64,000 nucleotides of DNA. Origin: Candidatus Marinarcus aquaticus. Its GTDB lineage: Bacteria; Campylobacterota; Campylobacteria; Campylobacterales; Arcobacteraceae. The notes beneath the pieces were generated by a model. That model was not told the DNA's origin and did not search any database. It worked only from the letters and a program-made list of their open reading frames with translations. Shown one piece after another: positions 43,718-48,821 of the stretch. The stretch covers positions 186,001 to 250,000 of the forward strand of contig NZ_PDKN01000001.1 of NCBI RefSeq assembly GCF_004116335.1, written 5' to 3'. How positions within the stretch are numbered: position 1 is the first letter of the stretch; each line of letters opens with the position of its first letter. Position numbers and translations under genes: made by a program.

Positions 43718-45889
43718 TTGAGAGTCGGTAACCGCTTAAAAAAATACATCATTTATATCATGAGTTTAAGTGTGATATGCAGCTCTTTGATTTACACCTA
43801 CATCTATCTTCCAAAATCGCTGGAAAGCTTTGATAATCGTCTTCGAGACTTTATGTTTATTATGCGTGGTGAAATTCCGCAAAACGATACCACCGTTATC
43901 ATTGATATTGATGAAAAATCTTTAAATGAAGTAGGGCAGTGGCCTTGGAGTCGAGATATTTTAGCTCAACTTCTTACAAATTTAACCCAAGCAGGTATTG
44001 GGGTGATTGGATTTGACATTGTCTTTCCAGAAGAGGACAGAACTTCTCCTCATAAAGTACTGAAAAATCTCAATATCAAACAAAATAAAATTGTCAATTA
44101 TGATGAAGTATTTGCACAAGTGATTGCCAATACTCCTACGATTTTAGGGTATCAGTTTCAGCTCGATAAAAAAGAGTTTATGAACACAAAAGCCCCAGAG
44201 ATTCCTGCTATTTTTATTGAAAAAAATCGTGATTTAGAACAAGACTATTTGCTCAATGCAAAAGGAACAGTAGTCAATACTCCTATCATTCAAGACAATG
44301 GATACTCCAGTGGTTTTTTTAATAATGTTCCTGATCCTTCGGGTATCATTCGTTCTGTTCCTCTGCTCATACGTTATGAGGAACAACTCTATCCCTCTTT
44401 GGCATTTGAAGTGTTACGTGCAGCATTAGGCATCAACAAAGTATTTGTAAACTACAATGAAATTGGTGTGGAGTCTATCAGTTTGGGAGATATGTTTATT
44501 CCTACGGATCGTTTTGGGCGTATCATTGTGAATTTCAGAGGAAAAGAGAAAACTTTCCCTTACTACTCAGCAGTGGATATTTTAAACAATAAAATTGACC
44601 CAGCACTTCTAGAAGGCAAAGTGGCACTTATTGGCACCAGTGCCGCAGGTCTTTTTGACTTACGAGCCACCCCTTTTGAGTCGGTTTATCCTGGAGTAGA
44701 AGTGCATGCAAATGTCATTGATAATATTCTTACAGGCGATTTTTTACATAAGCCAGCTTGGATTGATGGGGTTAATATCTTGCATATGGTTATTTTAGTG
44801 TGTTTTATTTTTGCAGTCATCTTAAGTGTCAATATCTATGTTATCCCTGTAGTATTTGTAAGCTTCTTAGTGCTTGACACTTATATGTTGTATTATGTGC
44901 TGTTTAATGAAGGCATTATTTTAAATATCTTTTTCCCAATTGTGACCATCATTGTAACAGCAGCCGTTGCTATTTTGATTAACTACTTGTTTGAAATACG
45001 GCAAAGTAATCTGGTCAAATTGAAATTTGCTTCTAAAGTATCCGCAAAAGTTATGGAAGATTTGATTAAAAATGAGGATCAAACACTCAAAGGAGAATCC
45101 AAAGAAGTCACGGTATTTTTCTCTGATATTCGAGGGTTTACCAATATCTCTGAGTCCATGAGTGATGCAAAAGCTTTGATTGAATACCTCAATGAGTACA
45201 TGGAACCCATGACTGAAATTATCATGAAAAATGAAGGTACCATAGATAAATTTATAGGCGATGCCATCATGGCATATTGGAATGCACCAAGTGATGTTAA
45301 AAATCATGCAGATAAAGCAGTGAAAGCCTCTTTGGAACAACTCTCTTATTTGAAATTGCTTAATGAACGACTGCAAAAAGAGAACAAGCCTTTGGTGGAT
45401 ATTGGTATTGGTTTAAATACAGGAAACGCAGTTGTGGGAGAGATGGGAAGCAGTGGACGAAGTGATTATACGGTTATTGGTGATCCCATTAACTTAGGAA
45501 GCAGACTTGAATCACTGTGTAAGTTTTATGGTTCTCGTTTAAATATCTCTAACTACACCAAATCGCTTTTGCAAGAGCAATATGTATTTAGGTTTTTAGA
45601 TTTGGTCAAAGTTAAAGGAAAACTCAAACCCGTTGAGATTTGGCAGGTGATTGATTTTGGGGAAGCAAATGGTGCACTTAAAGAGGAGTTGGCTCTGTAT
45701 GAAGAGGCCATTTTATTGTATCAAAATGAAAAGTTCAGTGAAGCATTAATGCTGTTTGAAAAACTCAATGTCTTAGAGAAAAAACAAAATGAGAAGATTT
45801 ACGCAATTTACATTCAAAGGTGTAAAAGTTATATACAAACACCACCAGAAAAATTTGATGGTGTTTATGAACATACCACAAAAGGGTAG
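43718..45889 (+). CDS. CHASE2-domain class III adenylate cyclase
   Basis: A 723-residue membrane cyclase: one N-terminal helix (about 9-29), a periplasmic CHASE2 sensor (about 38-345, with VIIDIDEKSLNEVGQWPW and ALIGTSAAGLFDLRATP), three closely spaced helices (about 350-430), a class III cyclase domain (about 465-640) and a short helical tail. Metal-binding aspartates are in FFSDIRGF and FIGDAIMAYW; the substrate-selecting residues K511 and D583 (DKFIGD, DYTVIGDP) fit ATP, so cAMP is the likely product. Start is TTG with GGAG 5 nt upstream. Its stop abuts the stop of the convergent FecR gene. Confidence 0.88.
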   Translation: MRVGNRLKKYIIYIMSLSVICSSLIYTYIYLPKSLESFDNRLRDFMFIMRGEIPQNDTTVIIDIDEKSLNEVGQWPWSRDILAQLLTNLTQAGIGVIGFDIVFPEEDRTSPHKVLKNLNIKQNKIVNYDEVFAQVIANTPTILGYQFQLDKKEFMNTKAPEIPAIFIEKNRDLEQDYLLNAKGTVVNTPIIQDNGYSSGFFNNVPDPSGIIRSVPLLIRYEEQLYPSLAFEVLRAALGINKVFVNYNEIGVESISLGDMFIPTDRFGRIIVNFRGKEKTFPYYSAVDILNNKIDPALLEGKVALIGTSAAGLFDLRATPFESVYPGVEVHANVIDNILTGDFLHKPAWIDGVNILHMVILVCFIFAVILSVNIYVIPVVFVSFLVLDTYMLYYVLFNEGIILNIFFPIVTIIVTAAVAILINYLFEIRQSNLVKLKFASKVSAKVMEDLIKNEDQTLKGESKEVTVFFSDIRGFTNISESMSDAKALIEYLNEYMEPMTEIIMKNEGTIDKFIGDAIMAYWNAPSDVKNHADKAVKASLEQLSYLKLLNERLQKENKPLVDIGIGLNTGNAVVGEMGSSGRSDYTVIGDPINLGSRLESLCKFYGSRLNISNYTKSLLQEQYVFRFLDLVKVKGKLKPVEIWQVIDFGEANGALKEELALYEEAILLYQNEKFSEALMLFEKLNVLEKKQNEKIYAIYIQRCKSYIQTPPEKFDGVYEHTTKG

Positions 45890-47371
45890 TTATCGGCTGG
45901 CTTTAAATACTCCCGTATAAGTTGCATTTCCAGTAAAGTAAAAAGTTCCACCTACAGATTTAGCATTGGGACCAAAGAATTTACCTGAACCATTTCCTCC
46001 TACTCCTGCTGTAGTAGGAGTAAAAGAGAAGCCAGAGGATGACAATGTCCCTGAAACATTGGTATAAAATGATCCTAGATTGAATCTCCCAGTGAGTGAT
46101 TTACCACCAAAATCAATATTAAAATTAACGGTGCTATTATAAGTAATATTGATAATGTTATTAGAACTTGATTGACCTAATACATAACCAGAGTAATTGT
46201 AATTTGCATTGCTATTAATTAAAGATTCAATCTCTGAACTTGGCGTTTGTGCTCCTGCAAGCCAATAACCTGATAGAGTCATTTCTTCACTATTGTAAAG
46301 AGTTGTTGCATTCCACTCTCCCCATTGTACATAATCGTTTGTATCATAAACAGGCGTAGTAAAAAGGTGACCTACAATACCAGAGTCTTCTTTTGAAGTG
46401 TACGTACCATTTTTAAATGTATGAATGTTTCCATTATATAAAAATTGTCCGGTTGATGAGAGAGTTCCACTGTATGAACCATCTTTATCAAAATTTGCAG
46501 AAAGGTTATTAAGTGTTAAATTATAAGAACTATAATTACCATCACTTAAATTTGAAGTATTGTCATCAATCTTTCCCTTTGTATAACTACTAGTGTTAGA
46601 CTCGAGCATATCTCCAATAAATACATATGCATCTTCTACGTCGTCATCTATATCCTCTTTATGAACTTCTCTTTTTGGTTCAGTAAAAGGGTCTTGTACG
46701 GGTTCATTATTTTCTGGTTCTGGAACAAGTCTAACGTCAAACTCATTGAGAGCACTCTCTTTTTCTTCCTCATTTAAAAACTTTGTATCTCTGTCGGTTT
46801 CTTGAATGGTCTTGGCATCAAACTCTTGAGCGACCATTGCTTCACCTTTTTTAATTACAACGTATTGACCTGCATTAATGGTGATGGTTTCACCTGTAAT
46901 ATTAGAAACAACGGTGATGGTTCCTTCAGTACAGAAAATCGTATCGCCTGAAATTTCCATATTACTTAATATCTGTGTTCCACGAATACCAATGGACGAA
47001 GATTTTGATTTAAGTCTGAATTTATCAGGGGCAATTTTTCCAATTTTTCCTGTGATGGTTCTAAAGGTACCTTTTAAAAGACCGAACTCTGCTTTGTACT
47101 CTTTTTTTTGTTCATCAAAGATGTAATCATTGACTGAAAATGTTGAGTTTTTACCAATGGTAATAATGGTTTCATCTTTAAAAATGAGTTGCAGTTTAGT
47201 GCCTTCTTGGGTTTGAACAATGTCATTTTTTTCTAAAAGAGAATTGAGTTTTAGCGTGATATTAGAATCTCCTCGTTTAATATGTGCTTCACCTTTAAGT
47301 GCAACCACTTGAGCAACTTGGGCAAAAAGCAAAGTTGATAAGGTTAAAAAAAGTAGAGCTATTTTTTTCAT
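45890..47371 (-). CDS. Secreted FecR-domain protein with a TbpB-like C-terminal barrel
   Basis: A 493-residue exported protein: Sec signal peptide (ends LFAQ, no lipobox cysteine), a FecR domain (about 20-185, SSIGIRGTQ and INAGQYVVIKKGE), an acidic linker (about 210-260) and a serine/asparagine/glycine-rich beta domain (about 265-493). The last 35 residues (GKFFGPNAKSVGG, GVFKASR) match the C-terminal eight-strand barrel signature of TbpB-like and hemophilin-like Slam substrates. The ATG 47371 overlaps the stop of the Slam-like gene (ATGA) with GGAGG upstream, so the proteins are coupled. Surface exposure or secretion through that partner is inference. Confidence 0.75.
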   Translation of the reverse strand: MKKIALLFLTLSTLLFAQVAQVVALKGEAHIKRGDSNITLKLNSLLEKNDIVQTQEGTKLQLIFKDETIITIGKNSTFSVNDYIFDEQKKEYKAEFGLLKGTFRTITGKIGKIAPDKFRLKSKSSSIGIRGTQILSNMEISGDTIFCTEGTITVVSNITGETITINAGQYVVIKKGEAMVAQEFDAKTIQETDRDTKFLNEEEKESALNEFDVRLVPEPENNEPVQDPFTEPKREVHKEDIDDDVEDAYVFIGDMLESNTSSYTKGKIDDNTSNLSDGNYSSYNLTLNNLSANFDKDGSYSGTLSSTGQFLYNGNIHTFKNGTYTSKEDSGIVGHLFTTPVYDTNDYVQWGEWNATTLYNSEEMTLSGYWLAGAQTPSSEIESLINSNANYNYSGYVLGQSSSNNIINITYNSTVNFNIDFGGKSLTGRFNLGSFYTNVSGTLSSSGFSFTPTTAGVGGNGSGKFFGPNAKSVGGTFYFTGNATYTGVFKASR

Positions 47372-48693
47372 AATTTGAACCTCCATGTGTAGTTCATAAA
47401 CACAGCATTTTTGTTATAATCATACGCTTCTTGGTTGGTGCTGTTGTTTGTTTTTGTGTAGTTGAGAGTAATGAAATCTTTTTTATTGATGATTTTGGTT
47501 ACTCCAATACTATAAACATTGGTATTATCTTTTCGGTTGTTATCAAAAAAAACATCTTTATCATTGTAGCGGGTTTGTGTGTGTTGGTATTTCAAGTTTA
47601 AAAAAAGCGATGGTTCTATGTTGTATTGATATAAAAAGGTGTTACTTACAATATTTTTATTTAAATCGGTTCGTTCTCCAAACTCTCTGTCATCTTTTTC
47701 AAACTCTAAAATATATTCAAAATCTTTATATTTAACTGAACCACCCAATACTTTTTTTCGGTAAGCTTTCATTTTATCCACTTGCTCTTCGTAATGAAAT
47801 TCGTTGTATGTTAAATAGGCAGATACAATGGTGTTTTTGTTAAGAAGCAGTCGGTATTTGGGTTCAATAGAGTAGACGGTGAAATCAACTCTGTCACCCG
47901 GATAGATTTTCTCTATTCCTACTTGTAGTGAGTATTCACTTTTATTTTTCACATCATTGTAATACAATGTTGGGGTGTACGCATAGTAGCTGAAGTTATA
48001 AAAATCGTTTTTGGTTTGATTTTTATAAAGCATCATTCCTGAGTGTTTAATGCTCCACGGAGAGTTTTTAGTAAGTGTTTGAATGTGACTGATTTGAAAA
48101 AAGGTTAAAAAAGCTGTACTTGATTGTGGTTCATCCCCATTGAGTTCCAGATTAAAAAAGCCCGGCAGATTGTACGAGTCATACTCAATACCATTGTTGA
48201 TATTATCGTCATACATGTAACCAAAACCTAAAGCAATAAAGGTTGAATCGTTTTGTGCCCCATCAATTTTGGCTAAGTACATCTCAATATTTTTTCTTAC
48301 ATTCTCAGGAATAGGGTATTGAGCCACTTTTAAAAACTCTTTTTTCGCCTCTTCTTTAAATCCTAAAATAAATTGAACACGTGCATACTCTAACCGTGCA
48401 CGGTGATATTCAGGAGCTACAATCAAGACTCTCTCAAATGCAGCAGTGGCTTCATCGTAAAGTTTGAGTTGAGTTGCACTCATGGCTAAGTAATAATTGA
48501 CTTGAACATGGTCGCTGTATTCTAAAAAGAGCTTTTTAAAAGCGCTGTAAGAGCGGGTATAGTCTCCTATTTTATAGTGAGTTTGAGCCAGAATAAACTC
48601 ATTGGAGGTTTCAACAGGGGTTGCTTTTTTAAGCTTCTCTTGTGCGAACAGTGTCCCCGTTAAGAGCAGCATTACAAAAATGATATGTTTCAT
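47368..48693 (-). CDS. Slam-like outer membrane protein (TPR plus beta-barrel)
   Basis: A 441-residue protein with a signal peptide (ends LFAQ), three or four TPR-like repeats (about 30-150; ATAAFERVLIVAPEYHRARLEYA) and a C-terminal barrel (about 155-441) of alternating aromatic strands ending in YTWRFKL, an outer-membrane terminal motif. TPR followed by a 14-strand barrel is the Slam (DUF560) architecture, which moves TbpB-like proteins to the cell surface. The downstream coupled gene encodes such a TbpB-like domain. I chose ATG 48693 over the TTG five codons earlier because the signal peptide starts there. Some sequence divergence from neisserial Slam is obvious, so the family call is moderate. 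Confidence 0.72.
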   Translation of the reverse strand: MKHIIFVMLLLTGTLFAQEKLKKATPVETSNEFILAQTHYKIGDYTRSYSAFKKLFLEYSDHVQVNYYLAMSATQLKLYDEATAAFERVLIVAPEYHRARLEYARVQFILGFKEEAKKEFLKVAQYPIPENVRKNIEMYLAKIDGAQNDSTFIALGFGYMYDDNINNGIEYDSYNLPGFFNLELNGDEPQSSTAFLTFFQISHIQTLTKNSPWSIKHSGMMLYKNQTKNDFYNFSYYAYTPTLYYNDVKNKSEYSLQVGIEKIYPGDRVDFTVYSIEPKYRLLLNKNTIVSAYLTYNEFHYEEQVDKMKAYRKKVLGGSVKYKDFEYILEFEKDDREFGERTDLNKNIVSNTFLYQYNIEPSLFLNLKYQHTQTRYNDKDVFFDNNRKDNTNVYSIGVTKIINKKDFITLNYTKTNNSTNQEAYDYNKNAVFMNYTWRFKL

Positions 48694-48795: not shown

Positions 48796-48821
48796 TTATC
48801 GTAACGAAAACGTTACGATAA
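48796..48821 (-). terminator. Terminator hairpin of trpE
   Basis: An 11-bp perfect stem (48796-48806 with 48811-48821) and a 4-nt loop overlap the trpE stop codon. The downstream U-tract on the minus strand is weak (AAGTTATTTTT). Confidence 0.65.

Follow-up and report, generated by a model that had tools for sequence, protein, structure and literature searches.

What joins an outer-membrane exporter, a secreted FecR protein and a CHASE2-domain adenylate cyclase in one small cluster of genes? The question is raised by a 64,000-nucleotide stretch of the Candidatus Marinarcus aquaticus genome (contig NZ_PDKN01000001.1, positions 186,001 to 250,000; hereafter the window, whose numbering we use except where one of our own locus labels, L followed by a number, is given). 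We propose, with a probability of roughly 0.55, that the three genes form a single unit leading from outside the cell to cyclic AMP (cAMP), in which a cargo protein would keep its FecR end in the periplasm and report surface events to the cyclase. The features concerned are as follows.

43718-45889, + strand: CHASE2-domain class III adenylate cyclase, 723 amino acids (aa) (sequence, Pfam)
45890-47371, - strand: secreted protein with a FecR domain and a predicted TbpB-type end, 493 aa (sequence, Pfam, structure prediction)
47368-48693, - strand: tetratricopeptide repeat (TPR) plus predicted 14-strand outer-membrane beta-barrel protein, putative exporter of the Slam/type XI secretion system (T11SS) type, 441 aa (profiles, structure prediction)
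47368-47371, - strand: ATGA coupling of the exporter and FecR genes, with GGAGG just upstream of the ATG (sequence)
48796-48821, - strand: stem-loop with a T tail at the end of a trpE-like gene upstream, a probable terminator (consensus scan only)

This three-gene layout, with its coordinates, its ATGA coupling and the absence of any nucleotide between two stop codons, had been described in a sequence-only reading of the window, and is confirmed here. The coding part of the exporter runs from 48693 to 47371 and its TGA stop occupies 47370-47368, so that the FecR gene start at 47371 falls inside the overlap with that stop. We favour this start (493 aa) over the less likely listed one at 47386 (498 aa). 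The cyclase and FecR genes converge, and no base (0 bp) separates their stop codons, TAG and TAA.

The arrangement is a real, conserved unit and not a product of chance, because its linkage is conserved in relatives. In a sample of 60 relatives chosen by kinship only and scored per genome, 30 possess the exporter, and CHASE2 is present in 30/30 genomes with the exporter vs 7/30 without it (Fisher test, 1.7e-10, uncorrected for kinship); exporter and CHASE2 lie in one cluster in 19 of the 30 exporter genomes. Each of the 16 TbpB_B_D matches in these relatives has an exporter, FecR or CHASE2 gene as neighbour, and 14 share a reading frame with FecR. We assembled a second sample of 80 loci from named genomes with a FecR-domain alignment (A3) alone, the exporter having no role in the selection. 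It spans many genera of Campylobacterota as well as Thiomicrospira (L161), and all 65 adjacent exporter-FecR pairs in it are co-directional, with gaps mostly of -4 to 29 bp. At the level of the phylum, FecR proteins of the window type occur in 48 of 298 Campylobacterota genomes. The conserved co-occurrence of the three architectures anticipated by the sequence-only reading is thus borne out.

Concerning the exporter, the window protein itself matches only TPR models in Pfam. Among 55 members of its family, 16 match the Slam barrel model SlipAM (E <= 0.01; best 1.6e-14) and 37 match TPR_Slam; the exporters of four relatives individually exceed the curated SlipAM cut-off, over most of the barrel, and the SlipAM-matching relatives adjoin the same type of FecR partner. 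An AlphaFold prediction based on the 55 aligned sequences gives TPR helices at residues 31-145 and exactly 14 long barrel strands (predicted local distance difference test score, pLDDT, 93), and in a Foldseek search OmpG, a closed 14-strand barrel, is the best fold match by target TM-score (0.69-0.71). The window exporter therefore carries, by profiles and by prediction, the N-terminal TPR domain typical of Slam outer-membrane proteins, and its linked partner has the TbpB-type barrel expected of T11SS cargo. Because of the SlipAM matches in the family, the 14-strand prediction and this partner, we assign the TPR-barrel protein to T11SS as a divergent and as yet unproven member. In several exporters (L004-L006, L008, L009, L068, L071) the TPRs are preceded by an additional SPOR-like domain at the N-terminus.

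The partner protein matches FecR (1.1e-10) and TbpB_B_D (5.9e-10) in Pfam. It begins with a signal peptide without a lipobox, continues with a FecR domain (about residues 18-183) and a disordered linker (214-296), and ends in an 8-strand barrel (390-492) predicted by AlphaFold, whose fold matches are NHBA-C3 (target TM-score, TMt, 0.74), TbpB and fHbp. Pfam, structure prediction and fold match thus agree on the C-terminal 8-strand TbpB-type barrel characteristic of T11SS cargo. Both barrels on which the sequence-only reading depended, one of Slam layout with 14 strands and one TbpB-like, were in this way put to the test by AlphaFold and both are predicted. The protein also matches the slam_lipo model NF041636 (E 5.4e-13), at 49.5 bits and hence below its curated cut-off of 80 bits. 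Since this cut-off is missed, and since the model was built for Slam-dependent lipoproteins and our protein lacks a lipobox, we limit ourselves to calling it a putative T11SS-type cargo, and not a member of NF041636. In a fold search, the FecR part matches the signalling domain of PupR and other anti-sigma periplasmic domains. We rejected an identity with the anti-sigma FecR of extracytoplasmic function (ECF) systems: PRK09774 (anti-sigma regulator FecR) is matched by 5/5 ECF-type FecR proteins and not by the window protein, which begins with a signal peptide instead of the cytoplasmic N-terminus of such regulators.

In relatives, the ends of the FecR proteins are constant and the middle is variable (up to ~2,700 aa). 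A core TGxIGK-type motif is found in the N-terminus of 73 of 74 FecR open reading frames, and a TbpB-type end, which we call the handle, in 47 of 73 complete frames. In 42 of the 47 handle-bearing proteins it lies <=5 residues from the C-terminus, and linkers measure 62-899 aa. Only two of the 74 frames show a lipobox pattern, neither convincing by position. Handle-less proteins are mostly short, with disordered tails, and in a few cases (L106, L110, L126, L140) the end was apparently missed by the TbpB profile. They tend to finish in short motifs, e.g. DRxxxY or PVEFPDR (L163, L158, L164, L118, L135, L145), possibly a docking tail.

The cyclase combines CHASE2 (9.4e-65, residues 28-361) and Guanylate_cyc (6.1e-24, cyclase domain 460-641), and keeps the expected catalytic motifs FSDIRGFT, KFIGDAIMA and GDPINLGSRLE. 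By the established residue roles of class III cyclases, the first two hold the metal-binding Asp residues and the third the transition-state Asn and Arg; the Lys/Asp pair of the adenine type is present as well. The genome also encodes nine matches to cyclic nucleotide-binding domains and a single phosphodiesterase match (PDEase_II), a metallo-beta-lactamase (MBL)-type candidate of ~790 aa (L175:1416-3791, contig C1 at about 467-469 kb). This gene lies on the same contig about 235 kb from the cyclase, and thus outside the cluster in this genome; in many relatives a phosphodiesterase adjoins the cyclase.

Which of these parts belong together most firmly can be read from the exporter tree, whose 53 rows we labelled by presence or absence of a TbpB-type end in the FecR partner. 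The end is present in 36 rows, and the label requires 3 changes vs 14.6 in shuffles. Changes are thus few, and the handle-less rows group in a single clade. It follows that exporter and CHASE2 keep FecR as their constant partner and that the TbpB end depends on lineage, a point that had escaped the sequence-only reading. Small FecR genes also adjoin second CHASE2 genes without an exporter, and at one locus (L073:1894-18775) two tandem exporter-FecR pairs, with FecR proteins of 954 and 2991 aa and common ends, stand beside a single CHASE2 cyclase. At another (L058:2681-5592) a FecR gene directly precedes a CHASE2-GGDEF fusion gene, from which CHASE2 with a FecR partner may feed cyclic di-GMP (c-di-GMP) as well. 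Pairwise distances correlate more strongly between FecR and CHASE2 (r 0.72-0.78) than between FecR and the cyclase domain of the same protein (0.63-0.68), a modest difference that vanishes or turns negative in 0.7-4.7% of bootstraps and holds in the handle-only set; such distance (Mantel) correlations share phylogeny, with ancestry partly controlled, and we take this one as a hint of coevolution.

A cluster of this kind has already been reported in Campylobacterota, comprising a CHASE2 cyclase, a phosphodiesterase, a FecR 'outer membrane protein' and a TPR protein, and its four gene types were proposed to act in one signalling pathway (PMC9239204, mBio 2022; its reference 52 is the NsrA paper discussed below). 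The cyclase, FecR and TPR genes are like those of the window, where the phosphodiesterase is unlinked; the published account places it in 'most', not all, clusters, and includes neither Slam/T11SS, nor a TbpB-type end, nor an export model. An experimentally studied analogue is found in Sinorhizobium meliloti, where the outer-membrane barrel protein NsrA is required for signalling through the CHASE2 cyclase CyaK (PMC7529298, PMC13001267). On pSymB, the gene overlapping cyaK encodes one 1190-aa protein with FecR, TPRs and, by position, a barrel, and from its length, barrel position and adjacency to cyaK we infer that it is NsrA, for which a barrel at residues 600-1200 is reported. In this fusion FecR precedes the TPRs and the outer-membrane barrel on the N-terminal side, which places FecR in the periplasm. 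NsrA-CyaK resembles the window system in that FecR, TPRs and an outer-membrane barrel are encoded beside a CHASE2 cyclase and an external signal raises cAMP; it differs in being fused into one protein instead of two genes and in lacking a TbpB-type end. Our FecR profile matches the S. meliloti protein (7e-9); exporter profile A1 gave no match to it, and homology of the barrels was not found. The three-gene form, with TPR-barrel, FecR protein and cyclase, also occurs on Shinella and Paracoccus plasmids, where the FecR proteins have a weakly matched TbpB- or FHBP-type end; the window FecR-TbpB protein itself has no match in plasmid records. In one of these plasmid-encoded FecR proteins, from Paracoccus aminophilus (L179:3832-5799), collagen-like repeats separate FecR from the TbpB-type end.

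Slam/T11SS loci likewise pair a TPR plus 14-strand barrel with a neighbouring cargo ending in an 8-strand TbpB-type barrel (PMC9090332, PMC8406197, PMC12282271), but the window differs from them in the missing lipobox, the FecR N-terminus and the linked cyclase, and the main texts of two T11SS surveys mention neither FecR nor Campylobacter or Arcobacter. In Burkholderia, FecR(LysM) and CHASE2 histidine kinase genes form an operon or pairs (PMC5192318), which share with the window a FecR protein and a CHASE2 sensor, with a histidine kinase as output and neither exporter nor surface end. The suggestion that the window combination is not a described system thus fails for the cluster itself, which is published and has an analogue in NsrA-CyaK, and holds, as far as the searched papers go, for the assignment to Slam/T11SS and for an export end of the TbpB type.

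These data lead us to the following model. The TPR-barrel would be a divergent Slam/T11SS outer-membrane translocon, and the FecR protein its dedicated, unlipidated cargo, with the TbpB-type barrel as export end and the variable middle exposed at the surface; sequence, structure prediction and genomic linkage support the translocon assignment and the domain anatomy of the cargo. The FecR domain would work in the periplasm and remain in it, so that the cargo would have its N-terminus inside, its C-terminus outside and its disordered linker within or close to the translocon. A surface change would then alter the contact of FecR with the periplasmic CHASE2 of the inner-membrane cyclase and set cAMP output; linkage, weak coevolution and the NsrA-CyaK precedent argue for a FecR-CHASE2 link. 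The route from periplasm to cAMP suggested in the sequence-only reading is plausible. What we infer is that the barrel exports the FecR protein, that the FecR domain lies in the periplasm and touches CHASE2, and in which sense control works. cAMP would act through CRP-type proteins and be cleared by a phosphodiesterase of the MBL/GAF/HD type, encoded in the cluster in many relatives and elsewhere in the window genome.

Retention of FecR in the periplasm is attractive because FecR proteins without a lipobox need some anchor, and we tentatively suggest that the cargo may never fully leave, exporter and cargo acting together as a transmembrane receptor through which events at the surface give rise to cAMP. 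Part of the FecR protein does resemble the retention domains of LapA and MpAFP: it matches 5ix9 in fold (TMt 0.77, root-mean-square deviation 0.9 over 62 columns) and in sequence (residues 17-89, E 0.041), and NF033682 below its cut-off. The titles of 5ix9 ('Cell surface anchoring domain', 'Antifreeze protein') lead us to take it as the anchoring domain of MpAFP. LapA is an adhesin of type 1 secretion controlled by c-di-GMP and LapG, and neither feature was seen here. We nevertheless downgraded this likeness, which is no proof of retention because it is below cut-off and common to FecR proteins without a surface part.

Several observations weigh against the proposed unit. FecR proteins that stand alone or lack the handle give equal scores for LapA-type retention. 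The window exporter has no match to SlipAM (PF04575, DUF560) at E 1, and no Slam barrel is among the Foldseek matches shown for it. CHASE2 was not seen in the cluster of the exporter in 11 of the 30 exporter genomes, some at contig ends. The shared phylogeny behind the distance correlations counts here too. Finally, 14 of the 53 rows of the exporter tree are handle-less and form one clade (100/100 support) in which exporter, short FecR (213-315 aa) and CHASE2 stay together, and export of TbpB ends is therefore not the sole job of the exporter.

We considered three other explanations. The whole FecR protein might be exported and released or surface-bound as ordinary T11SS cargo, with FecR as the effector and the cyclase regulating or merely neighbouring the operon. 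In the T11SS cargo described so far, the effector at the N-terminus varies and the C-terminus forms a barrel, and some cargo is soluble (PMC12282271); the anatomy of linker and handle fits, as do the 11 of 30 exporter genomes in which CHASE2 was not seen in the same cluster. We consider this unlikely, given that both exporter and CHASE2 are constantly partnered by FecR and not by the TbpB end, that FecR-only genes pair with CHASE2, and that the S. meliloti fusion points to a periplasmic FecR. Also improbable, in our view, is a role of the barrel as receptor or scaffold in the outer membrane instead of protein exporter, with FecR bound to its TPRs in the periplasm, a barrel ligand signalling to CHASE2 as in NsrA and the TbpB end serving as an accessory ligand-binding barrel. 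The handle-less clade speaks for it, as does the fact that NsrA-CyaK works as a receptor (PMC7529298), but the TbpB-type end of the 36 tree rows is C-terminal, the site of targeting in known T11SS cargo (PMC12282271), and the exporter family matches SlipAM and TPR_Slam. Export of a polysaccharide, as by BcsC, PgaA or PelB, we rejected as highly improbable from strand number and partners: BcsC is the top Foldseek match and PelB was returned too, along with CymA, but the barrel is predicted to have 14 strands and not the 16 that set PgaA apart from T11SS (PMC8406197), a scan of neighbouring genes recognised none for a polysaccharide synthase, and the constant partner is a protein.

Should the proposed unit prove right, the range of Slam/T11SS secretion would grow to include Campylobacterota and, with the Shinella and Paracoccus loci, further Alphaproteobacteria, a secretion system would be linked with second-messenger signalling, and CHASE2, for which few signals are known, would gain a concrete candidate input; a published, unexplained gene cluster becomes testable. 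A cargo-retained receptor, if true, would be the first case of a Slam-type secretion system acting in signalling.

At two loci (L061:4023-5000, L062:698-1730) an apparent OmpA-type peptidoglycan-binding protein with an IIGHTD motif comes after a small stand-alone FecR gene (142 aa), and in L062 a CHASE2 gene follows as well, possibly a third form of the same signalling logic. In another small FecR gene (L059:4465-5324) the missing second half resumes in another frame past a stop, and the gene is probably frameshifted in that genome. As to transcription in the window, terminator-like sites in the region are near shuffled expectation by consensus scan. Because the stem-loop at 48796-48821 is a probable terminator of the trpE-like gene, the exporter-FecR operon probably begins within the ~100 bp that follow it.
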